Assembly: GCF_020215665.1 (NCBI RefSeq)
Contig: NZ_CP084061.1
Span: 2,016,001 to 2,080,000 of the forward strand
Source: Blautia parvula
GTDB lineage: Bacteria; Bacillota; Clostridia; Lachnospirales; Lachnospiraceae
Direction of reading: 5' to 3'
DNA length: 64,000 nucleotides
Numbering within the stretch: position 1 is the stretch's first letter; the number at the start of each line of letters is the position of its first letter. This document shows, piece by piece, positions 24,497 through 61,387 of this stretch. Position numbers and translations under genes: made by a program. The notes under the pieces are model-generated. The model saw nothing but the letters and a program-made list of their open reading frames with translations, did not search any database and had not been told where the DNA came from.

Positions 24497-25543
24497 TTAT
24501 TCCGACACAGTTTCCACGGAATCTCTCTCAATCAAAAGAGGGTTTGCTTCATAAACCCTGACCATTTTTTCTTCCTTTCGCTCCCGGATTTCATTTATGA
24601 GAATCTGACAGGCTTTCATTCCCAGCTCCCGCAGAGGCATTCTGATGCTTGTCAGAGCAGGATAAAGATAAGAGGCAAATTCTCTGTCATCGTATCCCAC
24701 TATGGAAATATCTTTTCCCGGACAGATATCATGGCTGTGGAAATAATCATAGACACCCCCTGCAATGACATCACTCATGCAGAAGATCGCTGTCACGCCC
24801 TGTCCGCAAAGGATTTCCGCACAACGGCACCCTGCCTCTCTGGACCAGCTGCCGTAAACAATATATTCCTCACGGACAGAAATTGCCGCATCCTCCAGCG
24901 CTTCACGGTATCCTTCCAGGCGGAGCCTGGTGTGGATGCTGTCCTTCTCTCCTGTGATAACACCAATCTTCCTGTGCCCTTTTTTGATGGCAGCCGTCAC
25001 TGCATCACAGGCCCCTTTTCTGTCATTGATCACAAAGGAGGGATATCTGCTGGAATGCGTGTAGCCGTAAACCATCACCGCCGGAATCCCCAAATCCTCC
25101 GGAATGCATTTCAGAACCCGCTCATGGGAAGTGATATAGAGCAGGCCGTCCACCTGTTTAGCGGCAAGTTCTGAAATCGCATTCTGTACGGACTGTGCAA
25201 ACTCCTTCTTGCGGAAATAATCGTTTCCCAGTTTACTGCACAGCCTCAAATCCACATGCGTCTGGCCGTATCCTGTATTTTCACAGTATTCTGTTATTCC
25301 GTCGACCACATACGGCACATGAAAAACAGTCATATCCTCTATCAGGATCCCCAATGTTTTGGTCCGTTGGAGTCTTAAATTCTTGGCAACCAGATTGGGA
25401 GTGTAGTTTAATTCCCTGGCCTTTTCCAGAACCAGCTTCTGTGTCCTCTCACTGGCTTTCCGCTTTCCGTTTCCATTTAAAATATTGGAGACTGTGGCTA
25501 TGGATACATTACAGGCTGCTGCGATCTCACGAATTGTTGTCAT
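24497..25543 (-). CDS. LacI family transcriptional regulator
   Basis: A 348-residue repressor with the LacI helix-turn-helix and hinge in the first 60 residues (TIREIAAACNVSIATVSNIL, NYTPNLVAKNL), followed by a periplasmic-binding-protein-like effector domain (GVITGEKDSIHTRLRLEGY, ISIVGYDDREFASYLYPALTSI). It starts 6 bases past the stop of the cohesin gene, so it is in the same operon. It probably responds to a sugar released by the surface or cytosolic glycosidases of this locus. The operator was not identified. Confidence 0.92.
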   Translation of the reverse strand: MTTIREIAAACNVSIATVSNILNGNGKRKASERTQKLVLEKARELNYTPNLVAKNLRLQRTKTLGILIEDMTVFHVPYVVDGITEYCENTGYGQTHVDLRLCSKLGNDYFRKKEFAQSVQNAISELAAKQVDGLLYITSHERVLKCIPEDLGIPAVMVYGYTHSSRYPSFVINDRKGACDAVTAAIKKGHRKIGVITGEKDSIHTRLRLEGYREALEDAAISVREEYIVYGSWSREAGCRCAEILCGQGVTAIFCMSDVIAGGVYDYFHSHDICPGKDISIVGYDDREFASYLYPALTSIRMPLRELGMKACQILINEIRERKEEKMVRVYEANPLLIERDSVETVSE

Positions 25544-25549
25544 GTCTCA

Positions 25550-26248
25550 TCACTGTTTCCTTTTCTTTTTCCTCAATGACACGGCTCCTGATATGACAAC
25601 CGCCAGAGAAATCCCTGCTGCTGCCAGTGCTTCTTCCATCTTCAGTGTGTCACCTGTCTTGACTTTTCCCGATTTTGACGTGCTGCCGGCCGCGGAATTC
25701 TTCCCGGCTGTGGTTTTGCCGGTCTTTTTTGGTGTATCGTCAGTGTTATCAGCCGCTTTACCTATAAAGACCGTGCCGTTTTTACACTCTGCCGTCTCTG
25801 TCAGCTCCTCTGATTCTGCGGCAAGTTCCTCAACTGCAACTTTGATCTCTGTTTTTTCTCCTGACTTCAGTCCCGCATTGTCGAATTTCATCTGCAGAAG
25901 AGTCCCGTCTATAGACACCGGGCGGGCAGAAGCGAAGACAAATACGATCTCACCCTCATTTTTATTTCCCGTAATCGGGTCATTGATCTCCACCATGGTA
26001 TCTGCCAGACTGTCCCCCTGGCCGGATTCCTTTAATTTCAGTTTTTCCCGGTCATAAGTAATACGGATTTTTCCGTTGGTCACTTCACCTGCACCGCTTA
26101 TTTTACATTCTGCTGTTATCTCTTTATCCTCTGTCTCTATTTCCGGCACCTCAATGTCTACGATCCCTTTGGATGCGGCCCTAACTGACACACACAGAAA
26201 CATGGATAGCATCAATGACAAAAGACTCCATTTCATTATTCTCTTCAT
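25550..26248 (-). CDS. Wall-anchored cohesin-domain protein
   Basis: A 232-residue surface protein. Residues 1-24 are a signal peptide ending in VRA-A. Residues about 26-165 form a single beta-rich domain with the cohesin pattern (GKIRITYDREKLKL, EGEIVFVFASARP, GTLLQMKFDNAGLKSGEKTEI). A Lys/Thr/Ser-rich linker leads to VKTGDTLKMEE, a KTGD-type sortase signal, then a hydrophobic helix and the basic tail RKKKRKQ. Cohesins bind dockerin modules. The gene immediately upstream encodes an enzyme ending in a dockerin, so this protein probably fixes that enzyme to the cell wall. Only one cohesin is present, unlike cellulosome scaffoldins. The LacI gene follows at once. Confidence 0.82.
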   Translation of the reverse strand: MKRIMKWSLLSLMLSMFLCVSVRAASKGIVDIEVPEIETEDKEITAECKISGAGEVTNGKIRITYDREKLKLKESGQGDSLADTMVEINDPITGNKNEGEIVFVFASARPVSIDGTLLQMKFDNAGLKSGEKTEIKVAVEELAAESEELTETAECKNGTVFIGKAADNTDDTPKKTGKTTAGKNSAAGSTSKSGKVKTGDTLKMEEALAAAGISLAVVISGAVSLRKKKRKQ

Positions 26249-26267
26249 AGGCTTCTGTATCCTTTCT

Positions 26268-26294
26268 CAGGGAGGGACCTGAAGCCCCTCCCTG
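26268..26294 (-). promoter_or_regulatory. Hairpin between the dockerin enzyme gene and the cohesin gene
   Basis: A 9-base perfect stem (26268-26276 with 26286-26294) lies in the 52-base spacer, with no T-run following. It probably stabilises or separates the messages so that enzyme and anchor are made at different levels. Confidence 0.5.
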
Positions 26295-26300
26295 CATTCT

Positions 26301-29300
26301 TTAAAATGACGTGATCAGTTCTGCCGCATATTTTTCGATCAGTGCGGCATCTGCCGTATTAACGGCCTGGTCTTTATTGACATCTGCTGCTTTTAAGTCT
26401 TCCTCTGCTATCTCTGTCAGTTCCGCACTTGCTCTCAGTACAGAGGCTGCATCACTGGTATTGATCTTGCCATCATGGTTCACATCACCCAACAGCCGCA
26501 CCTTTGTCAGACTTTCCGTGAGCATAGCCGCAGCGTCATTGATCTCCTGCTGCAGTGCATCCCCATTATCAAGCACCTGCCTTGCGCTGTCCAGTGCTTC
26601 CTGCAGGCCTGCAAGGGAAGTATCTGTATAGCTGCCTGCGTTTTTCAGGATATCTTCTGCCATCTGGACAGCCGATTCCAGTGCTGCTTTGTTTCCGCGC
26701 ACCTGCATGTTTCCGATAGCCTCTGCCACAGCCTCATAAGCCTGGGAGACCTGAGCCTTGGTACGGTCTTCATTTTCCAGCACTGCCGCTGCTGTGTCAA
26801 TAGCTGTCTGAAGTGCTGTCTGTGAAGCTTCTGTATATTTGTCTGCCTCCTGCATCAGTTCCCTGGCAAGGTCCGTTATATTCTGAAGCCTTGAGGCATC
26901 CACCATGTCTTTCAGTTCTGTGAGGGCTGTGATCAGGGTCTCTGTGGCCCGGTTCACATCCTCCTGGGTGGATGTCTCATCAGACAGCACCCCATTTAAA
27001 AGCCTGAGTGCTTCTTTCAGTTTCTTTATCCCTGCCGGGCGGTAGACAGATACATCCTGGTCCAAAATAGCCTGTGCTTCTCTGGCAGCTACCTTCGCAG
27101 CAGCCGTATTCACACCATGCTCCAGTTTTCCCCACGCTTTTACAAGCGCTTCGTAGGACTGATCCACTTCCTCCTGGGAAGCGTCGGCTTTTTCCAGGAC
27201 ATCCGCTGCCGCTTTTCTTGCTTCGGAGAATGTTTTAAAGCTCTCTTTGGTGTAATCCTCCTCTGACAGATTCTCCATCCTGGTTACACAATTTCTCAGA
27301 ATCTCAACATTTACCAGGGCATCCATGGCTGCTGCCAGTTTCTGGGCTGCCTGGTCCACTTCCTTTTGATCGGCACTGTCTGCACTGAGTACAGCCTCTG
27401 CCTCCCGGATCGCGTTGTTAAGATCAGCCAGACTCTTCTCTGTATACTTTTCTGTCTGGGCAGCTGTCTCTTTTGCAAGATTCACTGCTGTCTCCAGGTT
27501 TGTCTTATCGGCAGGTTCTGCGGACTGTTTTGTCTGAATGAGGATATCCTGCTCTTTATCCGCTGACAGCTCCAGTGTAAATACGGCTTCTGTGCCATCA
27601 CTGGAAAAACTCTGTATCACTTTTTTATCTGCCACAACCTCATACTCTCCGGCCGGCAGCCTGCTGATGGTTATCTCAGGGGCATATTCCTTCTCTGTTA
27701 CATTCTCAAGTGTGAGTGCAATACTGCTCAGATCATCTGCAATACCGGCTTTTGTATATCTTGTCTTATCAAGCTGTACAGCGAACTTGTCTTTGTTATA
27801 CAGAGTCAGACGCGTGCGCACACCGTCTTTTGGAACAATGGAATATATTCCGTCCGCGTAATCCAGGTCACAGCCATATCCGTACAGTCCTACAATGTCA
27901 TCATCCACAATATTGGCAGATGCTGTCTTCAAACCGCCCCAGAATCCCAGGGATGCCTCGCCTGACCATGCCCACCAGCCGTCAAGACTCGGGATATAAT
28001 TGTATCCGTTAGTTCCTTTTTCACTCTGATACTGCCAGGACGCTGCACCATAGTTTACATCACTGTCACTGATCTGACCCGAGTTGATGTTGGCCCACCC
28101 TGCCAGATAAGCGCCATAGGTGCCCCTCATAATATCGTCAAATTCCTGATCCGATGTATCCGCATAGGTATACAGATAGTCCTGCTGCTGCCATGCCCCA
28201 AGCTGGGTCTCATATCCCAGATTCCACCAGGATTCCCCCATATGCCTGTTGTCGGATCCGTAATAATACCAGAGCGGCTGCATGCCGCGGCATGCCAGAG
28301 AGGCAAGTGTGACTTTGTCTGTCAGCGCCCCATTGCCGTACATCTTCGCAAGCGTATAGCATGCCTCGAATCCTGTGGTGTCAATGCTCATCTCCGAAGC
28401 AAAGGGATATGCCTCAGCAAATAAGATATCTGCTTTTTCCTCCACTTTGCCGGCCAGCCACGCCTGCTCCTCACTATGTCCGTTCTGTTCCAGGGCATTC
28501 AGTATGTTAGGCAGGTTCATCTCTCCCATATTTCCGAAAATATAGGCGCCTCTTCCTCCGTTTTCGTAATTATGTCCGTCAAACATTCCATATGTAAAGT
28601 ATGCCTTCAGTGTGTTATAGCATCTCAGCAGATAATCATCTGCACTGAGATAATGAGTCATATCAGGGTAGCGCTGTGCGATCTGGTACATATTGTAATA
28701 GGTATTGGCCACATGCACATAATTATAGGATCTCCAGGTGCCCTGGTCCTTTGGCGTGCCATCCTTGCCGTCATACCAGCGGTAGACCTTATAGGTATCA
28801 TGCTGCTGCATATATCCCCAGATAAAGTTTTCCATATAATACTCCAGGGAATCGATCTGGTCCTGCTGGGGGGCAGTGATATTCTTTTCAGAAAGATAGA
28901 CTGCCGGGGATAATCCAAGGTCATCAGAACCCCCTGCCATCCATTCTTTCCATCCTCCTCCCGGATAATCATCCCAGGATATCTGTTTTCCGGTGGACAT
29001 ATCCCACTGCAGGTATGCTCCGTTGTACCCTTTTTCCGTCTTTGCCTGCTGCTTGTCCACAAGAAAATCCGTGTTGCTCTGGATCAAAGTCTCTATGGGT
29101 TCCGTAGCATAATACTGCAGCACACTTTTCTTATCTTCCCCATAATTTACTGTCACATAGTTCTCTCCCAGGTCAGAGAAAGCGATCTCATAGATCTCAT
29201 AGCCATTTCTGTCTTCCTTTTTTGTTATCTCTGTGCTGTCTGAATCAGCAGTCACACTGTTGATCTGTTCCTTGCATCTCACTGCCAGCGTTGCCTTCAT

Positions 29301-31448
29301 ATCCTGGGGGATCACCATTCCCGGAAGGGAGACCGCATCCACGATCCCGGCTTCATAGAGGATGTCCCGGAGGTCCGAATAATCTGATGCCCAGTAAAAT
29401 GTAAATCCATACGTCTGTTCCGCTTCCGGCTCAAGGCTCAGGGATGTTGCCGGCAGATAGCCTCCCGGACGGTCTTTGGATATCTCTTTGGAATGGATAT
29501 AATACTCAACCAGACCTTCCCAGCTCGGATCCTTTTCCGCAAACGGCCCTTCCTTAAATCTGGCCTTATCTTTAAACTCCAGCGAAGTCCCGTCATCAGG
29601 CACCATAACTAAAAAGGAACCATCCCCGTTTGGCCGCTGCCAGTAAATGTAAGAACCGTCCTCTGCCACATAAGAATGACGGGCCACATTCTGTTCATAG
29701 ATTCCCTCCTGGCTGGTATTCCACCAGGAATTCATAAGAAGAGGCAGGCCCAGATCCGCAATCTCAATCGTTTCATCTGCTGTATTCTGTATATTGATGG
29801 ACCAGTTGAGCTGGTTCCCCTCCTCATTTAACCGGTAAGTCTCACGCAGCGCAAAATCCTTGATGCCGTATTTCCCGGCAGATGGCGATTCATAGGAAAC
29901 TGTGACCGCGTCATCTCTTCTGGACACCTTTCTGGTATCATCAGACCAAGAGGTAAGCGCCGGATAATAATCAGAATCACCTTTTTTTACAGTTAATTTC
30001 ACATCGCCTGTCCAGCGGGAATCATCCACGTCAAACTCCGGCTTTATGGTGGGGTTCATCACATAATTGGTCCCGTACTCATCCCCCGGATTTGAAAGCT
30101 TAAAAATACCGCCGGTCTTCTCGTCAATATCTACGGTAAAGTAATCTGACTGCAGCTTCAGATTCACCTCTTCATTATACGCAAAATCCACTTCGTCAAA
30201 AACGATACTGGTCTCTCCCTGGGCATCCCAGTCATCCGCGATCAGTTCTGCTGTGTGGATACCCGTAAAATCACTCACCGGTATACCGCTGCCCGGTGCC
30301 AGCACATACATGTCCTCATCATTTACTTTATAGTAGGCATCTATGGTCTGTGCCTGGCTGTCATAGTCAATACGGAACCAGCCCTGTGACTCTTCATAGG
30401 GGATGATCTTCTCCGTTGTCTCCCCCTGATTTACCACAGTAAAACGGAGTGTCCCGTCTCCCATGCGCATCATCTGGGCAAAATTCTCCTCAGATGAATC
30501 CAGAGATGTCCGCAGTATGGCCCCTCCTGTCTCATCTGATGAAAAACCGCTCCATTTGGCTTCTATGGAATAATCCTGGTCGCCTGCATTCCTCTTTACC
30601 GTACTGATTCCGTCCCCTGCATTTACAAGAGCCAGATGTCCGTCTTCATATCTCACATCACCGTCCTGCCCATACCAGTCATCTGTCAGAACAGGCCCGG
30701 TAAAATCTGTGTTTTCTGCTGTGCTATACTGGGCCTCCTTCACAAAAGTGCTGTTGAACTGTAAGAAATCAACAGATACAGGAGCTGAACCGCCCCATTT
30801 CTGTGCTCTGAGTTCAGCTACATGCTTTCCTCCGAAATTGGACATGGCCTCACCATTTCCCTCCAGGGGAATGTACTCATCCTCATCCCCTGTCCTGTAC
30901 ACAGCGATCACTGTCCCGTCATCACTGTTATATCCAATCTGGAACCAGCCTTCTGTGTCTGCGAAATCCGTTTTCGTGGTATAAGAGGTCTGCACCTTAT
31001 CGTTGATCAAAAGCAGCTTCAGCTCCCCGTTGCTGAAACGCTGGATCTCCACCAGATTATTCTCTGTTCCATCGGAGACACGGAAGATGACTACGGAATT
31101 GTTTCCCTGGGTATCGGCAGAATAGCTGCTCCATTTAGTCTCAACGGTAAAATCGCCGTTTCCCACATTTCTTTTTATAGAAGACACAGGTCCGCCGTCG
31201 TTATTCAGGGTCAGTGCCCCCTCCGTATACTCCACGTTTCCTGCCATATCAAACCAGGCAGGATCAAGATCCCCTGTAAAATCATCCTGGATCACAGCCT
31301 CTGTTGTCTTCACGATTCCGTTCTCCTCACCGGCTGCGGCCCCCTCCTCTTCAGCGGCTCTTACCTTGACGGTTCCTGCCGGCAGACAGGTGGCAGCCAT
31401 TGCTGTACTCAGCACCAAAGAACATAACTTCCATCCTCTTTTCTTCAT
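26301..31448 (-). CDS. Secreted DUF5695-like glycosidase with LamG-like, FIVAR and dockerin modules
   Basis: A 1715-residue exported protein. A signal peptide (1-32) is followed by two related 200-residue beta-sandwich (LamG-like) repeats (about 50-235 and 245-430; compare SSIKRNVGNGDFTVETKWS with STVKRNAGDQDYSIEAKWS). A roughly 830-residue catalytic-type core (about 435-1290) has a beta-sandwich then an alpha/alpha-barrel-like part rich in aromatic residues (DGWWAWSGEASLGFWGGL). About five FIVAR-like helical repeats (1305-1650) and a dockerin with two calcium loops (GDVNHDGKINTSDAA, ADVNKDQAVNTADAA) complete it. The core resembles the uncharacterised DUF5695 family and is paralogous to the cytosolic protein at 39000-41369. 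It lies 35 bases after the GH127 gene. The catalytic activity is inferred from context only. Confidence 0.82.
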   Translation of the reverse strand: MKKRGWKLCSLVLSTAMAATCLPAGTVKVRAAEEEGAAAGEENGIVKTTEAVIQDDFTGDLDPAWFDMAGNVEYTEGALTLNNDGGPVSSIKRNVGNGDFTVETKWSSYSADTQGNNSVVIFRVSDGTENNLVEIQRFSNGELKLLLINDKVQTSYTTKTDFADTEGWFQIGYNSDDGTVIAVYRTGDEDEYIPLEGNGEAMSNFGGKHVAELRAQKWGGSAPVSVDFLQFNSTFVKEAQYSTAENTDFTGPVLTDDWYGQDGDVRYEDGHLALVNAGDGISTVKRNAGDQDYSIEAKWSGFSSDETGGAILRTSLDSSEENFAQMMRMGDGTLRFTVVNQGETTEKIIPYEESQGWFRIDYDSQAQTIDAYYKVNDEDMYVLAPGSGIPVSDFTGIHTAELIADDWDAQGETSIVFDEVDFAYNEEVNLKLQSDYFTVDIDEKTGGIFKLSNPGDEYGTNYVMNPTIKPEFDVDDSRWTGDVKLTVKKGDSDYYPALTSWSDDTRKVSRRDDAVTVSYESPSAGKYGIKDFALRETYRLNEEGNQLNWSINIQNTADETIEIADLGLPLLMNSWWNTSQEGIYEQNVARHSYVAEDGSYIYWQRPNGDGSFLVMVPDDGTSLEFKDKARFKEGPFAEKDPSWEGLVEYYIHSKEISKDRPGGYLPATSLSLEPEAEQTYGFTFYWASDYSDLRDILYEAGIVDAVSLPGMVIPQDMKATLAVRCKEQINSVTADSDSTEITKKEDRNGYEIYEIAFSDLGENYVTVNYGEDKKSVLQYYATEPIETLIQSNTDFLVDKQQAKTEKGYNGAYLQWDMSTGKQISWDDYPGGGWKEWMAGGSDDLGLSPAVYLSEKNITAPQQDQIDSLEYYMENFIWGYMQQHDTYKVYRWYDGKDGTPKDQGTWRSYNYVHVANTYYNMYQIAQRYPDMTHYLSADDYLLRCYNTLKAYFTYGMFDGHNYENGGRGAYIFGNMGEMNLPNILNALEQNGHSEEQAWLAGKVEEKADILFAEAYPFASEMSIDTTGFEACYTLAKMYGNGALTDKVTLASLACRGMQPLWYYYGSDNRHMGESWWNLGYETQLGAWQQQDYLYTYADTSDQEFDDIMRGTYGAYLAGWANINSGQISDSDVNYGAASWQYQSEKGTNGYNYIPSLDGWWAWSGEASLGFWGGLKTASANIVDDDIVGLYGYGCDLDYADGIYSIVPKDGVRTRLTLYNKDKFAVQLDKTRYTKAGIADDLSSIALTLENVTEKEYAPEITISRLPAGEYEVVADKKVIQSFSSDGTEAVFTLELSADKEQDILIQTKQSAEPADKTNLETAVNLAKETAAQTEKYTEKSLADLNNAIREAEAVLSADSADQKEVDQAAQKLAAAMDALVNVEILRNCVTRMENLSEEDYTKESFKTFSEARKAAADVLEKADASQEEVDQSYEALVKAWGKLEHGVNTAAAKVAAREAQAILDQDVSVYRPAGIKKLKEALRLLNGVLSDETSTQEDVNRATETLITALTELKDMVDASRLQNITDLARELMQEADKYTEASQTALQTAIDTAAAVLENEDRTKAQVSQAYEAVAEAIGNMQVRGNKAALESAVQMAEDILKNAGSYTDTSLAGLQEALDSARQVLDNGDALQQEINDAAAMLTESLTKVRLLGDVNHDGKINTSDAASVLRASAELTEIAEEDLKAADVNKDQAVNTADAALIEKYAAELITSF
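26505..27510 (-). repeat. FIVAR-type helical repeats (coding)
   Basis: Roughly five degenerate repeats of about 70 codons with the pattern L-x-x-A-I-x-x-A-x-x-V-L-x-x-x-x-x-(T/S)-Q-x-x-V-D-x-A-x-x-x-L. FIVAR modules act as spacers or sugar contacts in wall-associated enzymes. Here they would extend the catalytic core away from the dockerin. Confidence 0.7.
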
Positions 31449-31483: not shown

Positions 31484-33421
31484 TCACCCTGAGATCAGTT
31501 CCTTCACCCACACAGCCATCTCTCCCATACCTCTGTTGTTCCAATAGGCGTAGGGGATCGCTTTCAATGTTACATCTGATAACTTCACCGGATGTTCTCC
31601 ATACAGCACTTTTTCATCCCAGGCACTTTCTTCCATCCTTTTACCCTGCAGCACCAGCTCCGTGATACCCCCGAACAGCTCAGACGGTACCTCCTGTATT
31701 TCCTTCTCTGTATCCACATACAGCTCTGCCAGATTTTTCCCGTTGTCAATTTCCTCCAGACAATATACAAGGGGGCCTTTTACCACTGCCGTTTTGCCGC
31801 AGTCAGCACGTACCTTGGGATTGGCACGGACAAATTTTGCCGGCGCTTCAAAAGAAATACTGATATCTGCATCTTGCGCAAGTGCAAGATATGCATATCC
31901 TTTTTCTTCTTTATATTCCAGAAGCTGTCCTTTTGCGGTCATTTGGTACATTCCGGCGTATTCCGGAATCCTTACTGCCAGTGTCATTCCTCCGTCCGGC
32001 ACATGGCTGACTTTTATCCTCACCAGATTCTCAAAAGGAAATTTCGTCTCCAGGGAAACCTTGACTTCCCCTGTCTCCATTTCTATGCATACCTCATTTG
32101 AAATAAAGAGATGGACATACAGAGCGGTCTCACCAACAGAATATATGTACTGCCCCATGGAAGCCAGGATTCTGGCTATATTAGGTGGACAGCAGGCAAC
32201 ACCGAACCATTTCTGACGGGTGGGCTTTACATGTTCTTTTGAGGTGCGTTCCATACAATTATCAGGCCACACCTCCAGAGGATTTACATAGAAGAAGCTT
32301 TTTCCGTCCAGAGCGATCCCCGCCAGAACCGTATTATACAGAGCCCGCTCCACAGTATCTATGTAGGAAGCGTCTTTTGTTATATTCGCCATCCTGATGC
32401 CGAACATAGCCAGTCCGATGGAGGCGCAGGACTCCGCATAGTTACAGTCATTGGGCAGATCATAATCCACTGTGAAACGCTCCAGAATTCCGGATGCGCC
32501 AATACCTCCCGTGATATACATCTGTCTCTGTACTATGTTATTCCAGAGTCTTTTACAGGCTGCCATCAGCTCCTCGTCCTGATATTCATATGCCAGGTCC
32601 GCCATAGCGCTGTACATATAGACTGCCCTTACAGCGTGCCCCTCTGCTGCTTCCTGCTCCCGTACCGGTCTGTCAGACTGGGAATACTCGGGACGGTAAT
32701 CGGAAAGCTCCGGAAAGATATTTCCGCTGTCGCCTCTGCTGATCTCCTGAAGAAAATAGTTCTCTCCTGTTCCACGCGCATCAATAAAATACTTTGCCAG
32801 ATCCAGATATTTCCGTTTTCCTGTCACCTGGAATAGTTTGATCAAGCCGATTTCCACTTCCTGATGTCCCGGATACCCATGGATTTTCCCATCCTCACTG
32901 CCGAATGTATCACAGAGCAGATCCGCCAGTTTCTCCACCACGCCCAGGAATTTTTTCTTTCCAGTTCCCTGGTAATAGGCTGTGGCTGCCTCCATCATAT
33001 GCCCTGCAGTATATAGTTCATGGCCTTCCCGCAGGTTCTTCCACCTTTTATCCGGCTCTTTTATAATAAAATAGGTATCCAGATACCCATCCTCCTGCTG
33101 CGCCTCCGCAATGAGATCTATGACCTCATCTGCGGTCTTCTCCAGCTCAGGATTTTTCTCTGCTGCCAGAGAGAATCCCACTGCCTCCAGCCATTTGGCT
33201 ATATCGGTATCCTGGAATACCGCGCCGTAAAATTCTCCTTTTTTTCTTCCTGCCGCAACAGCGAAATTCTCCAGGCAGTGGGACGGCTCCGCATCCGGGA
33301 TACGGTCATTCATGGCATCCCACTGGTAGGGGATGATTGCTTCTCCCACCAGCTTCACGTGCTTTGTCCAAAAAGGATCCTGTATTTTTATTTTTTGAAG
33401 ATCAATAGGTTGTAATCTCAT
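31484..33421 (-). CDS. GH127 family beta-L-arabinofuranosidase-like enzyme
   Basis: A 645-residue cytosolic enzyme matching GH127 over its length (FWTKHVKLVGEAIIPYQWD, HELYTAGHMMEAATAYY, GHAVRAVYMYSAMADLA). The zinc-thiolate catalytic site is complete: Glu330 and Cys332 in AESCASIG, and the pair Cys410-Cys411 in ACCPPN, with the first expected to be the nucleophile as in bifidobacterial HypBA1 (Glu338, Cys340, Cys417, Cys418). The family removes non-reducing beta-L-arabinofuranose; some members have other furanoside substrates. The ATG at 33421 follows AGGAGGAATAAA. It is cotranscribed with the ABC importer genes upstream and the secreted dockerin enzyme downstream, so it probably digests imported oligosaccharides. 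Confidence 0.92.
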   Translation of the reverse strand: MRLQPIDLQKIKIQDPFWTKHVKLVGEAIIPYQWDAMNDRIPDAEPSHCLENFAVAAGRKKGEFYGAVFQDTDIAKWLEAVGFSLAAEKNPELEKTADEVIDLIAEAQQEDGYLDTYFIIKEPDKRWKNLREGHELYTAGHMMEAATAYYQGTGKKKFLGVVEKLADLLCDTFGSEDGKIHGYPGHQEVEIGLIKLFQVTGKRKYLDLAKYFIDARGTGENYFLQEISRGDSGNIFPELSDYRPEYSQSDRPVREQEAAEGHAVRAVYMYSAMADLAYEYQDEELMAACKRLWNNIVQRQMYITGGIGASGILERFTVDYDLPNDCNYAESCASIGLAMFGIRMANITKDASYIDTVERALYNTVLAGIALDGKSFFYVNPLEVWPDNCMERTSKEHVKPTRQKWFGVACCPPNIARILASMGQYIYSVGETALYVHLFISNEVCIEMETGEVKVSLETKFPFENLVRIKVSHVPDGGMTLAVRIPEYAGMYQMTAKGQLLEYKEEKGYAYLALAQDADISISFEAPAKFVRANPKVRADCGKTAVVKGPLVYCLEEIDNGKNLAELYVDTEKEIQEVPSELFGGITELVLQGKRMEESAWDEKVLYGEHPVKLSDVTLKAIPYAYWNNRGMGEMAVWVKELISG

Positions 33422-33452
33422 TTTATTCCTCCTGATTTGCCTTATATCCGGC

Positions 33453-34283
33453 CTATGCCTTGACTGCACCGTTGGTCAGACCGCTGACAATATATTTCTG
33501 CATGAAAATGAAGATAAGAACCACCGGCAGGATCGCGATAATACCAAAGGCCATGGTGGCGTTCCACAATGTCTGATACTGCTGCACATAGTTGTAAATG
33601 CTGGAGGTAATGGGCCTTCTCATAGGGTCTGTCATAAAAGTGATTCCATAGATCAGATCGCCCCATGCATATACAAAAGAGAATACGGCAGCTACAATAA
33701 CGCCCGGTTTTGCTATGGGGAGCATGATCTTCGTAAAGGATGTGATGCTGTTGCAGCCGTCGATTTTTGCCGCCTCATCCAGTTCCTTCGGTATGGAGAG
33801 GAAATAGGTCCTCAGAATAATAATACTGAACGGGATTCCAAGGGTAGCGTCTGCCAGGATGGGAGCCAGATAAGAATTCAGCAGGCCCATCTTGGAGAAC
33901 ATAATATACAGGGATGTCAGGATCAGGGTTGACGGAAGCATCTGTGTCATAAGGAAATATAAGATCAGGACTTTTCTGCCGCTGAATTTAAACCTGGCCA
34001 GCCCGTATGCGGCGGGAATGGACAAGATAGTGGAGATCACTGTGGCGCCCGCTGCAATGATCATACTGTTTTTAAAGCCCCTCAAAGTATCACTGGATGC
34101 AGAGAGCTGATCCGCGAATGCGTCCAGAGTCAGATTCTTCGGCCAGAGAGGCGTGGGAATCTGAAAAATCTCTACCTGTGTTTTCAGCGCTGTGACCACC
34201 ATCCAGTATAACGGGAAAATGAAGATCACAAATACTATGGCTCCGATGATAAAAAATTTCAGGTTTCCTTTCTCGTTCTTCAT
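33453..34283 (-). CDS. Carbohydrate ABC transporter permease (MalG/CUT1 type)
   Basis: A 276-residue inner-membrane permease with six hydrophobic segments and the ATPase-docking EAA loop (ELDEAAKIDGCNSITSF) near residue 190, as in CUT1 permeases. The start lies one base after the stop of the partner permease, sharing a GAGGTG site. It forms one importer with the next permease and the binding protein at 35264-36535. No ATPase gene is in the window, so a shared MsmK-type ATPase elsewhere probably powers it. The cargo is likely the oligosaccharide cleaved by GH127. Confidence 0.92.
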   Translation of the reverse strand: MKNEKGNLKFFIIGAIVFVIFIFPLYWMVVTALKTQVEIFQIPTPLWPKNLTLDAFADQLSASSDTLRGFKNSMIIAAGATVISTILSIPAAYGLARFKFSGRKVLILYFLMTQMLPSTLILTSLYIMFSKMGLLNSYLAPILADATLGIPFSIIILRTYFLSIPKELDEAAKIDGCNSITSFTKIMLPIAKPGVIVAAVFSFVYAWGDLIYGITFMTDPMRRPITSSIYNYVQQYQTLWNATMAFGIIAILPVVLIFIFMQKYIVSGLTNGAVKA

Positions 34284-34284
34284 C

Positions 34285-35190
34285 TCACATCACCTCGTCT
34301 TCATCATTGATCAGTTTAATATAGAAAATACCTACCACGAACAGTATCAGGAACAGAATATTGGCTGCCGCCGCGCCCTTACTGAACTGGAACTGGTCAA
34401 AGGACAGCTTGTAAGCATAAGTTGAAACCAGCTCTGTGGCATTGACCGGCCCGCCCTTTGTCATGACCCATACCAGGTCGAACACTTTGAATGTATATAC
34501 AAATCCCAGCGTCAGCACAGACATGATAGCCGGCTTTATCATGGGGATCGTGATCTGGAACAGTGTCTGGAATTTATTTGCCCCGTCCAGACGTGAGCTT
34601 TCATAGATCTCCTCCGGAATGGTGGTGAGTCCTGTGATCAGAAGCATCATGTTAAAGGGGATACCAATCCAGATATTTGCCACTACAATGGCTATCATAG
34701 CCAGTTTGGGGTCCAGCAGCCATTCCAGCGGTGCGTTGATCAGATGCAGGGACATGAAAAGCTGGTTGATGATACCGCCTTTGCTGGCAAACATGAATTT
34801 GAACAGCAGACCCGCAACCGTGACCGGAAGCAGCCAGGAGATCATGGTCACACCTCGGAAGAAGGAGCTTCCCTTGAATTTTTTGCTGAACAGAAGCGCA
34901 AGGCCGAATCCGATAAAAAACTGGAAGAAAATTGATGCCACCGTAAAGATCAGTGTATTTTTAATAGCTGTGGTCAGTATCGCCTCACCGCCTGAAAACA
35001 GTTCCTTATAGTTCTCAAATCCTACAAACGCCTGCTTGGATGCATCTGCAAAGGAATATACATCCACATTCTTGAAACTGAGGATAAAGTTCTGTATCAT
35101 GGGGTATCCCACAAATATCAGCATGTAGATGGCGGCTGGAAGTGCAAACAAAAAACCAACCTTTGGTCCGAGAGTTTTCCCTTTTTTCAT
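34285..35190 (-). CDS. Carbohydrate ABC transporter permease (MalF/CUT1 type)
   Basis: A 301-residue permease with six membrane segments and the EAA-type loop EIYESSRLDGANKFQTLFQ near residue 205. The N-terminus (GPKVGFLFALPAAIYMLIF) is typical of the MalF-like partner. It is translated directly before the MalG-type gene and after the solute-binding protein. Confidence 0.92.
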   Translation of the reverse strand: MKKGKTLGPKVGFLFALPAAIYMLIFVGYPMIQNFILSFKNVDVYSFADASKQAFVGFENYKELFSGGEAILTTAIKNTLIFTVASIFFQFFIGFGLALLFSKKFKGSSFFRGVTMISWLLPVTVAGLLFKFMFASKGGIINQLFMSLHLINAPLEWLLDPKLAMIAIVVANIWIGIPFNMMLLITGLTTIPEEIYESSRLDGANKFQTLFQITIPMIKPAIMSVLTLGFVYTFKVFDLVWVMTKGGPVNATELVSTYAYKLSFDQFQFSKGAAAANILFLILFVVGIFYIKLINDEDEVM

Positions 35191-35263: not shown

Positions 35264-36535
35264 TTATTTTTCTGATGCCTTCACCTTATCCACGGCTGCC
35301 TGTGTATCTTCTGCTGCTTTTTCAGGAGTCTTTGCTGAGGTCATAACCTCCTGGAATCCTGTCTGCAGTGCATCGGAATATTCCGGCCAGGAAGCACTTG
35401 GGCCTCTTGGGATGGATGTCTGAAGCTGTGTGATAAATTCTTTCTGGATCGGGTCATCTGTCCAGTAGGAGTCCTGAGCCGCCTCTGTTTTCGGCGGGAA
35501 GGAACCGTACTGTTTCATAGCGTCTACCATCACCTCTGTCTTGTCATAGTATTCCATGAATGCAGTGGCTCCGCCCATGTCATCCTGTTTTACAGCTCCC
35601 ATATTCTCACCACCCAGAATGGAGGTTGCCTGGTCAGAATCCGCGTCTTTTTTGGGGAGTACCGTCACACCGTAGTTCAGATCAGGAGCGTCCTTCTCGA
35701 TTCCCGGGATCTGCCATGGTCCGTTCTGCTGCATAGCCAGGTTACCTGCCACGAAGTTGTTATTTACGTCTGACTGTGTCCAGTTCACGCAGTCCTTTGA
35801 CCAGGAACCGTCAGCTACCATCTCCTGCATAAGGTTGTAGGCATCCGTACCGCCTTTCACATTCTGGTAGTCCCCGCCTGCTGTGTATAACCACTGCAGA
35901 CACTGGAAGGTTCCCTCATCTGTTCCTGTAGCAGCATTGCCGAAGCCAACCACACCGTCTTTCGTCAGCGCTTTTGCCATCTCATGGAAATCTTCCCATG
36001 TGGTGTTTTCATTGGGATACTCCATACCTGCCGCATCGAAGATATCCTTGTTGTAGAACAATGCCGTACAGTTGGTGGCAAAGGGAATACCGTAATGTTT
36101 TCCGTCCGCCATAGTGGATTCCATAGGGCCTTCCAGGTATTCATCCCATTTGATATCCGCATCTGATACATCCCCGAACAGGTCCATCTGAATGAAGGAT
36201 GCCATGCTGCAGCCGTCCAGGATGACCAGGTCCGGGAGTTCCCCGGATGCCATGCCCAGTGTCAGCTGTTTTTCATAGTCTGCAAAGGGTACATACACAT
36301 GGGATGCCTCGTATTCCTCCTGTGATTCATTGAAGCCGTCAATGATGTCCTGCATCATATTCTTCTGAGCATCCGTCTCGAAGTAATCCCAGATGACCAC
36401 CTCTTCCTTTCCTCCGGCAGTCTTCTTGCTGCTGTCCGTTCCCGCGGAAGCTGTTCCTGCGTTTCCTCCGCATCCTGCCAACATTGTAGCTGCCATAGCC
36501 ATACAGAGCATAGCGCTCACTACTTTTTTCCTCAT
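35264..36535 (-). CDS. Sugar ABC transporter solute-binding lipoprotein
   Basis: A 423-residue lipoprotein with a lipobox (MLAGCGG) at residues 18-24, followed by a Ser/Thr/Lys linker and a CUT1 binding-protein fold (EVVIWDYFETDAQ, GELPDLVILDG, YGIPFATNCTALFYNKDIF). It is a clear paralogue of the orphan binding protein at 41939-43153, sharing the opening (WDYFET/WSYYET), FNxSQEx, the YGLPF/YGIPF motif and NGPW. It heads the importer-GH127-dockerin operon, behind a promoter module duplicated at 41827. It captures the oligosaccharide outside the membrane. Confidence 0.93.
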   Translation of the reverse strand: MRKKVVSAMLCMAMAATMLAGCGGNAGTASAGTDSSKKTAGGKEEVVIWDYFETDAQKNMMQDIIDGFNESQEEYEASHVYVPFADYEKQLTLGMASGELPDLVILDGCSMASFIQMDLFGDVSDADIKWDEYLEGPMESTMADGKHYGIPFATNCTALFYNKDIFDAAGMEYPNENTTWEDFHEMAKALTKDGVVGFGNAATGTDEGTFQCLQWLYTAGGDYQNVKGGTDAYNLMQEMVADGSWSKDCVNWTQSDVNNNFVAGNLAMQQNGPWQIPGIEKDAPDLNYGVTVLPKKDADSDQATSILGGENMGAVKQDDMGGATAFMEYYDKTEVMVDAMKQYGSFPPKTEAAQDSYWTDDPIQKEFITQLQTSIPRGPSASWPEYSDALQTGFQEVMTSAKTPEKAAEDTQAAVDKVKASEK

Positions 36536-56746: not shown

Positions 56747-59700
56747 TTATTCCCCGGCAGTCTGCCCTGCCAGCAGTCCTGTCAGCGTATCCCGCAGTAT
56801 CTTCACATCAATAGGCTTTGCCACATGGGCATTCATTCCCGCTTCCAAAGCCTCCTGCACATCCTCCGCAAAGGCATTGGCTGTCATAGCTATGATCGGA
56901 ATGGTTCCCGCGTCCTCTTTCGCCATTCTGCGGATGGCACGGGCCGCGTCGTATCCATTCATCCGCGGCATACGGATATCCATCAGGACAGCGTCATAGG
57001 TCCCCGGCTCTGCCCGCTGAAATTCTTCGACTGCCTGTATGCCGTCTGTCATCACCACGGATCTTGCCCCGTACATTTTCAGCAGCTCACACAGAATTTC
57101 TGAATTGATGGCGTTGTCCTCCGCCACCAGGAAACAGCGGCCTGTTAATATCTGAGCGTCATCCTGTCTCTCAGGCTCCCCGTCCCCATCCTGTTTTACT
57201 GCCGCCTCGCCCTGCATGGTCTCACAGATGATCTCCACACAGAATACACTGCCCTCATTTTGTCTGCTCTTTACCCATATCTTACCGTCCATGAGATCCA
57301 CAAGACCTTTCGTGATACTAAGACCCAGCCCGGTGCCCTCAATCCCCACTGTATTGGTATTTCTGGAAAATGGCTCAAAGATATGCTCCACAAACTCCTC
57401 CGTCATGCCGATGCCGGTATCGCTGATGGTAAACCGGTAGCAAACCTGACCATCCTTACAGCCCCGGTCCGTCTCCTCCGCCAGGAATTCCACTCTGCCT
57501 CCCTTAGGCGTAAACTTAATAGCATTGCTCAGAATATTGATCAGAATCTGGTTTATGCGCAGCTTATCCCCATAGAAATTCTGGTGGCGGATTTCCCTGG
57601 CTTCCATGGAAAAGGCAAGGCCGTTTACCTCCGCCTGAGGTTCCATCATAGCCGACAATTCCTTCAGCATTTCCGGCATAGAGATCTGCATCCGGTTGAG
57701 CATGATCTTGGAGCGCTCTATTTTGCTCATATCCAGTATATCATTGATGAGACTGAGCAGGTATTTGGAGGAGGAGGAAATCTTCTGCAGGCAGTCCTTC
57801 ACCCGTTCTTTTTCATCCAGATTGGCCATGGCCAGGGAGGTCATGCCGATCACAGCGTTCATAGGTGTCCTGATATCATGGCTCATGGAGGAAAGAAATT
57901 CGCTTTTTGCCCGGTTCGCCTTCTCCGCAAGGGCCAGTGCTTCCTGCAGAGCATCCTTTGCCTCACGCTCCGCAGCCAGCATATCTGTCACATCCGCGCG
58001 CACCATGCAGACCCTCCGGTGTCCCCTGTCTCCCCACAGCACATTCACCTGCTTGTACCGCAGCCCGTTCTCTGACTGGTACGGAAGTACAAAATCATAC
58101 CCCGAAGGTTTTTCTTCCAGCCGCTTCATCATATTGCCCAGATCAAAGTACTGTTCATTCTCCTCCTCAATATGACTGGTGATATAAAAGTCCGTAATAT
58201 TCTTCACCAGCTCCCTGTATCCCTCCAAAATATAGGGTGACAGGTTCTCCAGCACGGTCTGCCGGGTGTACATGGTCACACGGCCGTCGTTTACGTCAAT
58301 AAAAGCCATAAGCTCAAAGGTATAAGCCACCACATTCAGCATACTCTGCTGCTCCCGCACAGAATCCGTGATGTCTGTTCTTGCCAGACACACACGCCCA
58401 AGTCTCAGATCAACAGCCGATACCGTCATGTTTTTTGTGAGCACATCCCCCTTCTCGTCTGTGATGGAATAATGGAAGGAATAGCTGTTCTCCCTTTTCA
58501 GATGCTCCATCATATATGCGCCGGCAAGCATTTTGGTGACATGTTCTTTATCCCTGGGCACTATGCCCATACAATACTTCTCCATGATCCACTGGGAATA
58601 ACATCCCCGGTGGTTTACATCCTCTCCCGCGGTCCCGCTGCCGGTCAGGACAGTATAGCTGTCCTTCAGCACATCCACATCAACGACCAGGTCATAGCTG
58701 GTAACAGACAACTGCCTCAGTATCCGTTCGGATATAGCCTGCTCCGTAATATCCGTCACGGTCAGGATTCCTGTTACGCCGCCTGTATCCGGTGTTTCCA
58801 CCAGGTTCACCTTGAACTGCACATACCGCCCGTTCTTTTCTTTCGGCAGTTTCACATAGCACTCCCGGATCTGCTCTGTATCTCCCTTTTTGAACGCGGC
58901 AAGTGTGGGTGCATTGAGATAGGTATCCAGAAAGAGCTGCTTTTCATCCGGGTCTGTCACCAGTTCCGCAATTCCGGCAAAGAACTCCTCCCGCACACTT
59001 CCGAATGTTTTTAAAAGGTCTGAATCCGTATAATCGAGAATCTCCAATATCCTGTTCTGTGTTATATTGCAGTGTCCCACGATCAGAGCGTTTGGCCCCG
59101 GTGTACGGTAATGCTGCAGGATCAGGTCATTATACTGCTTCCGTATCTGTGCCTTCTCCTCCCGCTCTTTTGTCATATCATGAAATCCGGCATAGATGCG
59201 TTTTTCTCCGTTGGCGCTCTTGACCAGGGACAGGGTATTCTTCACCCATACATAATTCCCGCCGCCTGTTTTTAAACGGTACACAATCTCACAGGGACCA
59301 TCCCCTGCAGCCATATACTCCTCCATCCGCCGATTCACAAATGCCCTGTCATCAGGGTGCACACCGGCCATGGCATCCTTTTTGTAGATCGCCCAGGCCT
59401 CCTCCTTGGTCATCTTTGTCATCTCAGCAAAGCCTTCCGACAGAAATTCCGGTATCATTCTGCCGTCCGGCTCATACCTTACCACTGCTACGCCTCCGGG
59501 CAGGTATTTCAGCACATTCTGGAAATACTGCTCCAGCCTCTCTTTCTCACTCTGGGTCCTCATTTCCTCTGTAACATCTCTCACGTACTTGATATACGCC
59601 GGGATGCCGTTCCAGTCTGTCTCCCGGAAACGGATACTGTAACAGCGGTCATTCTCCGGGTCCATCATGCGGTGTTCTTCCCCGTCCGGCCGATGCTCTT

Positions 59701-61387
59701 TCTGGGTACAGAACTCACAGGGCCTGTCTTTTCCGTACATGGCTTTGTAGCATTTCTGTCCCAGACATTTTTTTCCTTTCTGAAACAGAAGCTTGGACTC
59801 ATTGGCATAGAGCAAGTCATAATTGTCCTTTCCAATCACATAGATTCCGTCTGCCGTATCATTGGCAATGCTCTGGAACAGTCTCGCCTCCGCAGACATG
59901 CCGGTGAACACGGCGTAGAACCGCATAGATTCTGAGCAGGCGTCCATTCTCCTGCCTCTTAAATGGACCCAGACAAGGCCCCCGTCTCTGTGCCTGATCC
60001 GGTAAGACACATCCAGCACCTTGCCGGTTTCCAGGGAAACCCGCATGGCTGACAGCACACGATCCCTGTCCGGCTCATGGATCAGCCGGAACGCGTCATA
60101 CTGTTCCAGCTCCCCTCTGGTATGGCCTGAGAGTGTCATAACACCGTCTGATATAAAAATCGGAGTGATACGTTCCCCCTCGATACGATAGCTGGCGATT
60201 CCTCCCGGAATGGAGTTCACCAGATGGTCCATCTCAAGCTGTGTCTCCTTCAGATCAGATATGTTGTGGAACACACAGTGGAGGAGCGGACAGCCCTTAT
60301 CTTCCCCGATCCATTTTACATGAGCACGCACCCAGACAATATGTCCGTCTCTGTGCTGCTTGCGGAACTCAAATACCAGCACTTTATGGGTGCGAATGAC
60401 CTCCTGTACCTTCTCGATGACCATCTCTGTATCTTCCCAGTATGTCATCTCCACAGCGTCCCGCTTAACAAGCTCGCGGTATTCCTCTACCGTATACCCG
60501 GAAAGCTCCGGAACACCGTCTGAAAAATAGATTGTCTCGAAGATATCCGATATTCTGTAAATAGCTACGCCGCCGGAAATGGCATTGACAATATCCTGTA
60601 CCTTATCCTTTTCCGCTATCAGCTCCTTTTCCATCTGCACCTGTCCGCTCACATCTCTGTAGACTGCATAGAGCAGCTTTGTCCTGTCCGTCTGGGATTT
60701 TACAGATGCCTGCAGATGGATCCAGCCGTATTCCGCCTTCCTGTCGTTCCAGACCCGGTAAGTGTGCTCCATGGTACCGCTGGCCTTGATCGTTTTCTGG
60801 ATCTTTTCCCGGAGGGCACCGCAGTCGTCAGGGTGCACGCCCATGTATTCCGTCTTTTCCTCCACATTTCTGATGTGTTCTTCCGAATACCCCATGATCT
60901 CATAGAAAGCAGGGTTGTGGAAGACAGGCCGAATCCCGGTTCCGTCATAGCGGTATACACAAAGCCCGCAGGGGATACTGCTGAATGTGTCCTGAAGCTC
61001 TTTTTTCAGGATAGCTGACTGCTCTTCTTCCCGTTTTCTGTCCGTGATGTCCTGTATATATTCAATATGCGCGGCATTCCCGTTCCAGTCTATAATCTTG
61101 CCGCTGAGCTGATAGATTCTGCCATTGGCAGGATGGCGGTATTCGCGGAACAGCAGTTCAGGTCCGCTGATCTCCTCCCTGCGGCAAAACGCGCACGGCC
61201 TGTCAAAACCGGCCACCTGATAACAATACTTTTCCTCCGGATCCGCACCCGGCATAAACGTCTCCCATGCCAGCCGGTTGGCGTACAGTATCTCGTATGT
61301 ATCCGCTGAACTGACACAGACCGCTATCGGTGCATTGTCCATCAGTGCTTTCACCTGATCCGCCAAAAGAGAAACTTCCCGTATCAT
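56747..61387 (-). CDS. Multi-PAS hybrid sensor histidine kinase/response regulator
   Basis: A 1546-residue soluble signalling protein with no membrane segment. About nine PAS-type domains occupy residues 10-1130. The first and fifth carry a cysteine triad (CYQVAGFDRPCAFC near 55-68; CYKAMYGKDRPCEFC near 545-560). The kinase part follows: H-box SSMSHDIRTPMNAVIG (about 1150), N-box LSNAIKFTPKGG and TGLGLSITKGLVD, then a C-terminal receiver (CFLVAEDNAINSEIL, VLMDIRMPRMNG, IIAMTANAF). GGGAGGG precedes the ATG. It has no partner regulator gene and no DNA-binding domain, so it probably signals by phosphorelay to a protein encoded elsewhere. Inputs are unknown, perhaps redox or metal through the cysteine-bearing PAS domains. 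Confidence 0.92.
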   Translation of the reverse strand: MIREVSLLADQVKALMDNAPIAVCVSSADTYEILYANRLAWETFMPGADPEEKYCYQVAGFDRPCAFCRREEISGPELLFREYRHPANGRIYQLSGKIIDWNGNAAHIEYIQDITDRKREEEQSAILKKELQDTFSSIPCGLCVYRYDGTGIRPVFHNPAFYEIMGYSEEHIRNVEEKTEYMGVHPDDCGALREKIQKTIKASGTMEHTYRVWNDRKAEYGWIHLQASVKSQTDRTKLLYAVYRDVSGQVQMEKELIAEKDKVQDIVNAISGGVAIYRISDIFETIYFSDGVPELSGYTVEEYRELVKRDAVEMTYWEDTEMVIEKVQEVIRTHKVLVFEFRKQHRDGHIVWVRAHVKWIGEDKGCPLLHCVFHNISDLKETQLEMDHLVNSIPGGIASYRIEGERITPIFISDGVMTLSGHTRGELEQYDAFRLIHEPDRDRVLSAMRVSLETGKVLDVSYRIRHRDGGLVWVHLRGRRMDACSESMRFYAVFTGMSAEARLFQSIANDTADGIYVIGKDNYDLLYANESKLLFQKGKKCLGQKCYKAMYGKDRPCEFCTQKEHRPDGEEHRMMDPENDRCYSIRFRETDWNGIPAYIKYVRDVTEEMRTQSEKERLEQYFQNVLKYLPGGVAVVRYEPDGRMIPEFLSEGFAEMTKMTKEEAWAIYKKDAMAGVHPDDRAFVNRRMEEYMAAGDGPCEIVYRLKTGGGNYVWVKNTLSLVKSANGEKRIYAGFHDMTKEREEKAQIRKQYNDLILQHYRTPGPNALIVGHCNITQNRILEILDYTDSDLLKTFGSVREEFFAGIAELVTDPDEKQLFLDTYLNAPTLAAFKKGDTEQIRECYVKLPKEKNGRYVQFKVNLVETPDTGGVTGILTVTDITEQAISERILRQLSVTSYDLVVDVDVLKDSYTVLTGSGTAGEDVNHRGCYSQWIMEKYCMGIVPRDKEHVTKMLAGAYMMEHLKRENSYSFHYSITDEKGDVLTKNMTVSAVDLRLGRVCLARTDITDSVREQQSMLNVVAYTFELMAFIDVNDGRVTMYTRQTVLENLSPYILEGYRELVKNITDFYITSHIEEENEQYFDLGNMMKRLEEKPSGYDFVLPYQSENGLRYKQVNVLWGDRGHRRVCMVRADVTDMLAAEREAKDALQEALALAEKANRAKSEFLSSMSHDIRTPMNAVIGMTSLAMANLDEKERVKDCLQKISSSSKYLLSLINDILDMSKIERSKIMLNRMQISMPEMLKELSAMMEPQAEVNGLAFSMEAREIRHQNFYGDKLRINQILINILSNAIKFTPKGGRVEFLAEETDRGCKDGQVCYRFTISDTGIGMTEEFVEHIFEPFSRNTNTVGIEGTGLGLSITKGLVDLMDGKIWVKSRQNEGSVFCVEIICETMQGEAAVKQDGDGEPERQDDAQILTGRCFLVAEDNAINSEILCELLKMYGARSVVMTDGIQAVEEFQRAEPGTYDAVLMDIRMPRMNGYDAARAIRRMAKEDAGTIPIIAMTANAFAEDVQEALEAGMNAHVAKPIDVKILRDTLTGLLAGQTAGE

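Follow-up and report, generated by a model that had tools for sequence, protein, structure and literature searches.

What does a single cohesin do when its gene lies directly beside that of one large secreted dockerin protein? The question is raised by two genes in a 64,000-nucleotide stretch of Blautia parvula (assembly GCF_020215665.1, contig NZ_CP084061.1, positions 2,016,001 to 2,080,000), hereafter the window. A gene for a 1715-residue protein ending in a dockerin (26301..31448, minus strand) is followed, 52 bases past its end, by a gene for a 232-residue protein with one cohesin (25550..26248, minus strand). We read the pair as a self-contained surface-display cassette with one enzyme per anchor, and as one of four private pairs in this genome, in each of which the cohesin serves its own neighbour; we put the probability of this reading at roughly 70%. 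In outline, the bacterium appears to tether each of its four large secreted dockerin proteins, most of which are enzymes that cleave sugars, to the cell surface by a single-socket anchor from a neighbouring gene. Such an arrangement is akin to the multi-enzyme cellulosome but simpler: plug and socket remain together and the enzyme ahead of them changes.

The larger protein, defined by its open reading frame and Pfam matches, has a signal-type N-terminus as judged by eye, a DUF5695 region presumed to be the catalytic part (residues 475-1264, 27657..30026, minus strand; Pfam expectation value (E) 7.9e-69), a putative stalk of five FIVAR stretches matched by Pfam (about residues 1311-1648, 26505..27518, minus strand) and a C-terminal type I dockerin with two calcium loops (residues 1649-1715, 26304..26504, minus strand). 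An initial annotation of this DNA had proposed the two-loop dockerin, and it was borne out: Dockerin_1 scored 43.6 bits against a cut-off of 22.9, and both calcium-loop repeats are complete. Against solved structures, the FIVAR-dockerin profile matched the hyaluronidase module 2jnk/2ozn over both parts (E 1.7e-6), which we take to be the FIVAR-dockerin of Clostridium perfringens. For DUF5695 no solved relative was found, the sole match being at chance level (E 0.19), and in the accessible text of the literature searched its name occurred only in work on fungal velvet regulators.

The smaller protein runs from a signal-type N-terminus (by eye) through one cohesin domain (residues 36-154, 25787..26143, minus strand; Pfam and fold comparison) and a Lys/Ser/Thr-rich linker to a KTGD sorting-type tail with a hydrophobic stretch and a basic end, read from the sequence (residues 197-232, 25553..25660, minus strand). 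The single cohesin-like domain and the KTGD-type tail that had been ascribed to this gene are thus both present. Pfam Cohesin gave 20.9 bits on the window domain, under the curated cut-off of 24.1, with the relative at another locus of the genome, L008, passing at 32.7. The modelled domain has the fold of the cohesin family rather than the unrelated fold that the check might have returned. Chance or mis-annotation was ruled out by the fold together with the recurrence of the domain.

Searching the genome (6.25 Mb, one contig) for more dockerin tails revealed three further ones, giving four Dockerin_1 matches, all above cut-off and all directly adjoining a single-cohesin gene. A cohesin-only profile recovered these four cohesins and none other at E 0.01. 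They lie on four separate proteins of 232-280 residues, in which Pfam found no enzyme domain, and no multi-cohesin scaffoldin was found in the genome by the cohesin profile A2 at E 0.01 or by Pfam at E 0.001, although a very divergent cohesin could escape these searches. The window pair is therefore not an isolated instance, and the minimal two-gene system of the initial annotation stands as a pair, but the genome has four such pairs, and they belong to a family of cassettes that extends to relatives. The L008 pair joins a 1283-residue protein, which has ricin-type lectin domains and matches BNR weakly (E 0.023), to a 280-residue cohesin protein; the L009 pair joins a 2182-residue protein with F5/8C and malectin domains to one of 266 residues; and in the L010 pair a 2409-residue GH53 protein has its 270-residue cohesin protein upstream, not downstream as in the others. 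Our names 'sial' (L008) and 'bhelix' (L009) are labels given by eye. All four dockerin proteins contain FIVAR. The dockerin G000:C1:5180573 was considered as unpaired and this was rejected: Pfam missed its cohesin, which locus reading and the profile place upstream. A cohesin-like segment noted by eye in the L009 protein (about residues 1213-1345) found no support in hhalign (E 0.056, probability 1%), and phmmer against the PDB gave only 20-residue filamin matches.

Relatives were surveyed in a family sample, in which the cohesin profile matched 16 of 397 genomes at E 0.001, a genus sample, in which it matched 7 of 20 genomes at E 0.01 (four of them strongly), and an extra sample of four loci in named genome contigs, one of which, L052, repeats L094. 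Counting as strong a locus with an A2 profile match at E below 1e-15 or a named-contig match, and each tandem once, there were 20 strong loci in total. A dockerin gene adjoins the cohesin or cohesin tandem in 17 of these (4/4 in the B. parvula genome and 13/16 elsewhere). Scans of 17 dockerin proteins from these loci found FIVAR in 16, the exception being that of genome G182; L092 and L093 lie outside this count. Nine of the 11 dockerin matches in the genus stand beside a cohesin or one gene off, while two dockerins, G008:C1:3940258 and G009:C1:989667, lie inside proteins of about 1800 residues, and no cohesin was found for them; the dockerin frame of G061 is merely 161 residues long. Eleven loci fetched for other dockerin matches in relatives (L109-L119) contained no cohesin by the same profile, which shows that dockerin genes do not always come with a cohesin gene next to them; our own profile re-found the dockerin in 10 of the 11. 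Contig ends truncate some of these stretches, and the set leaves out G044, G046 and G055.

Weaker cohesin matches in the family sample (E 2e-8 to 5e-4) comprised 10 loci, and six of the seven read have a dockerin match in a nearby gene, three of them inside the protein rather than at its end; G172:C13 shows no such match, and G176, G336 and G213 were left out, as were the weak genus matches in G016, G012 and G015. At L102:9251-14275, L104:9377-14083 and L107:9485-13240, dockerin-like pairs lie within large proteins (that of L104 being a subtilase) beside a weakly matching single-cohesin gene. Two further proteins, of 1549 and 1251 residues (L105:9952-14601 and L106:6812-10567), each contain as many as three weak cohesin-like matches; beside their genes, or not far off, lies one whose product ends in a dockerin.

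The pairs also share their inheritance. Trees of the cohesins and of the FIVAR-dockerin tails, computed from 17 of 19 pairs, fall into the same six groups: 1) the window pair with a GH43 pair of G008 and the GH16 pair L049, 2) the L008 pair with L050 and G061, 3) three GH3 pairs, 4) the L009 pair with one pair each from G008 and G009, 5) G004 and Robinsoniella, and 6) L051 and G144. The four pairs of the B. parvula genome do not cluster together in either tree. Over 16 pairs, the cohesin and dockerin distance matrices are correlated (r = 0.63), a value reached in 0 of 10000 permutations; this Mantel test drops three of the 19 pairs: that of G009, which is near-identical, and two in which a second dockerin uses a cohesin already paired. 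Compared with the window protein, the G008 GH43 protein (49%) and the L049 GH16 protein (45%; its start is cut by a contig end) match residues 1311-1715 alone, and only the last 423 residues are common to the L008 protein and the DUF5695 protein of L050 (55%; E 1e-6 throughout). The window and L050 proteins share the DUF5695 region (29% over 543 columns), yet belong to different cohesin-dockerin groups. Some groups show no such swap, the L009-type proteins being alike end to end (87%), as are the GH43 proteins of G004 and Robinsoniella (67%). Since the closest cohesin and dockerin relatives of the window pair are attached to unrelated enzymes, with only the last 405 or so residues in common, the FIVAR-dockerin tail and cohesin gene behave as a cassette: computation shows tail and anchor gene inherited together and the catalytic part in front exchanged. 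These data bear on whether the cohesin-fold domain binds something else, such as a glycan, its adjacency to the dockerin gene being mere operon membership. A common fold does not in itself show function, but the recurrent adjacency behind several different catalytic domains and the parallel descent of cohesin and tail make this very improbable.

Whether the cohesin protein would be held at the wall turns on its tail. KTGD tails of the same layout are present on other proteins of the genome, seven sortase matches in the genome exceed their cut-offs, and a KTGD tail occurs in 15 of 17 paired loci. When a profile of the whole cohesin protein was used, the weaker matches aligned chiefly to the linker and tail, and five of eight such loci read have KTGD tails. 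Together, gene order, single cohesin and sorting-type tail support the earlier suggestion that one anchor may display one enzyme. Several features of the tails count against wall anchoring: the LPXTG and Gram_pos_anchor models stayed under their cut-offs; KTGD is present in three of the four anchors of the genome, that of L008 reading KTKD; the L051 anchor has neither motif, though it does have a hydrophobic stretch and basic end; and the tandem second cohesins of L096-L098 have no KTGD tail. Such features would fit a cohesin protein that is loosely held or released, its KTGD being a membrane tail or left uncut and the complex membrane-bound or soluble, but the similar tails elsewhere, the sortases and the recurrence of KTGD across paired loci lead us to regard this as improbable.

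G388, G182 and G070 each have a tandem of two cohesin genes, and in each tandem a single product bears a KTGD tail. The second cohesins, which lack this tail (L096:2772-3779, L097:8720-9823 and L098:5569-6618) end in a beta-rich region that looks FN3-like by eye, and Pfam gave no match on the two of the three that it was run on.

A different division of labour would be a shared anchor pool, in which all four anchors bind all four dockerins, adjacency serves only co-expression and the surface display is mixed. The four dockerins are indeed all of a single type, with 45-54% identity in the dockerin itself (and 36-41% in the tails, in five comparisons), and in several relatives dockerins far outnumber cohesins, with dockerin matches and A2 cohesin loci numbering 22 and 1 in G182, 12 and 1 in G388, 9 and 2 in G070, and 8 and 3 in Robinsoniella (G221). 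Pfam Cohesin adds one clear match each in G182, G070 and G388, within frames of more than 2100 residues, plus weaker ones, so that the anchors of these genomes may exceed the A2 count. In G182, a genome of 2.6 Mb, one tandem cohesin locus and a Pfam Cohesin match in a 2183-residue frame accompany the 22 dockerin matches (L097, L142-L161), which make up a dense dockerin system. Larger KTGD cohesin proteins of 539-636 residues (L099:7840-9549, L100:8287-10197 and L101:8514-10133) begin with about 335-410 residues for which Pfam gave nothing at E 0.01, and the stretches read around them show no dockerin match; these could possibly be shared anchors in dockerin-rich genomes. Sharing also has a precedent in ScaE of Ruminococcus flavefaciens, which according to the accessible part of PMC5301203 binds several proteins.

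The dockerins themselves speak to the choice between private pairs and sharing. As recognition positions we used 10, 11, 17, 18 and 22, which we take to be established by C. thermocellum work. A study of R. albus, in its accessible part, uses positions 10, 11, 17 and 18. The dockerin set retained 62 of 63 domains (E below 1e-6), from which six more were dropped as of other type or truncated (one from G070, two from G144, two from G221 and one from G388), leaving 56; it includes 20 of the 22 G182 matches, one not having been fetched and L161 having failed the threshold. Identity at the recognition positions is 0.47 among the four B. parvula dockerins, compared with 0.80 in G182, 0.79 in G388 and 0.71 in G070, and at the other positions 0.44, 0.61, 0.61 and 0.58, respectively, so in those three relatives the recognition positions are more alike than the rest. 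Drawing one dockerin from each of four genomes gave 0.53 at the recognition positions and 0.46 elsewhere, with 21% of draws at or below the B. parvula recognition value, while 0 of 3000 random subsets of four in each of G182, G388, G070 and G221 were as varied. Over all 1244 between-genome pairs the mean recognition-position identity is 0.62, higher than 0.53 because dockerin-rich genomes dominate these pairs. In addition, for three of the B. parvula pairs the cohesin finds its nearest relative in another genome, not among the other three. The suggestion in the initial annotation that the window anchor may serve other dockerin proteins is therefore not favoured, the other three having cohesin genes of their own and dockerins about as unlike each other as dockerins across genomes. 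Based on these sequence comparisons, dockerin divergence favours private pairs, and we regard a shared pool as rather unlikely. More tentatively, the four pairs may be mutually orthogonal, swappable display cassettes, with relatives having switched between private anchors and shared ones, the latter meaning that twelve or more enzymes depend on a single cohesin locus or on a few.

Other observations weigh against the main reading and have to be set beside this. Dockerin divergence may reflect separate acquisition rather than separate specificity, and the Robinsoniella dockerins are intermediate, and so varied too (0.57 at recognition and 0.54 at other positions), despite only three A2 cohesin loci. 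In G004 and Robinsoniella one cohesin accompanies two dockerin genes, so one-to-one pairing is no general rule, and at three strong cohesin loci (G221:C27, G221:C9 and G070:C104) the sequence read contains no dockerin. Several tree groups have moderate bootstrap values of 83-94, and when the tree is built from the 67 dockerin columns only, the groups of the window and L008 pairs run together. Cohesin distances correlate with FIVAR distances (r = 0.60) about as strongly as with dockerin distances, so linkage alone could give the congruence; we therefore rejected tree congruence as proof of binding and take it to show linkage. The predicted structure of the FIVAR-dockerin was poor (predicted local distance difference test, pLDDT, 59.3), and no interpretation was drawn from it.

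In the mechanism that we infer for the private window pair, the enzyme would be exported and its FIVAR-dockerin tail would plug into the single cohesin of the neighbouring gene's product, with calcium in the two dockerin loops and the FIVAR run acting as a stalk. A sortase acting at KTGD would fix the cohesin protein to the wall, holding one enzyme per anchor above the sugar importer; this and the GH127 enzyme, both products of the same gene run, would then import and trim the freed sugars, respectively.

By analogy, the nearest functional precedent is ScaE, described in the accessible parts of PMC5301203 and PMC4081043 as a sortase-anchored single-cohesin protein and a hub. It resembles the window anchor in its single cohesin, and the KTGD tail is plausible as a sorting signal; that hub serves several proteins, and the B. 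parvula genome has four cohesins for four dockerins with divergent recognition positions. The cohesin (X82)/FIVAR-dockerin system of C. perfringens likewise has single cohesins and dockerins outside a cellulosome, and FIVAR beside a C-terminal dockerin, as in our four proteins. There, however, enzymes pair with enzymes, all five cohesin proteins also carrying a glycoside hydrolase according to the accessible text of PMC12997984, whereas ours are enzyme-free and have a sorting-type tail. Cellulosomes and the mucinolysome also place cohesin-dockerin modules on secreted glycan-active proteins, and cSca5 of Limousia bears a wall-sorting motif (PMC12997984, accessible text), but their multi-cohesin scaffoldins gather many enzymes, whereas here there is one cohesin per protein and anchors equal dockerins in number. 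Anchors with a single cohesin, such as ScaE, and FIVAR-dockerins, as in C. perfringens, are thus already known; in the literature searched, which covered few subscription journals, we found no account from this family of anchored single cohesins paired one-to-one with FIVAR-dockerins, nor of one non-catalytic anchor per dockerin protein, genome-wide and moving as a cassette. Cohesin-dockerin biology has mostly been viewed through multi-enzyme scaffolds, and a genome with all-private anchors beside relatives with up to 22 dockerins and few cohesin loci would offer a natural comparison for the evolution of specificity and the need for scaffolds. If the pairs are orthogonal, they could be used as they are to build protein displays, and the cassette gives a prediction as to which of the enzymes secreted by these bacteria remain cell-bound.

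The window pair belongs to an operon-like run on the minus strand that begins with the solute-binding protein of a sugar ATP-binding cassette (ABC) importer (35264-36535; SBP_bac_8, E 1.5e-37) and two permease-like genes (34285-35190 and 33453-34283), the domain evidence for the importer covering the binding protein only and the permeases being named by eye. A GH127-type enzyme gene (31484..33469; PF07944, E 1.2e-108) precedes the dockerin and cohesin genes, and the run ends with a LacI-type regulator (24497..25543, Pfam), which lies 6 bases beyond the cohesin gene and by inference belongs to the same operon. Judged from GH127 alone, the target glycan is probably an L-arabinose-bearing plant polymer. 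Elsewhere in the window, a hybrid histidine kinase of 1546 residues, containing a receiver domain and multiple PAS domains, is encoded at 56747-61387, also on the minus strand.

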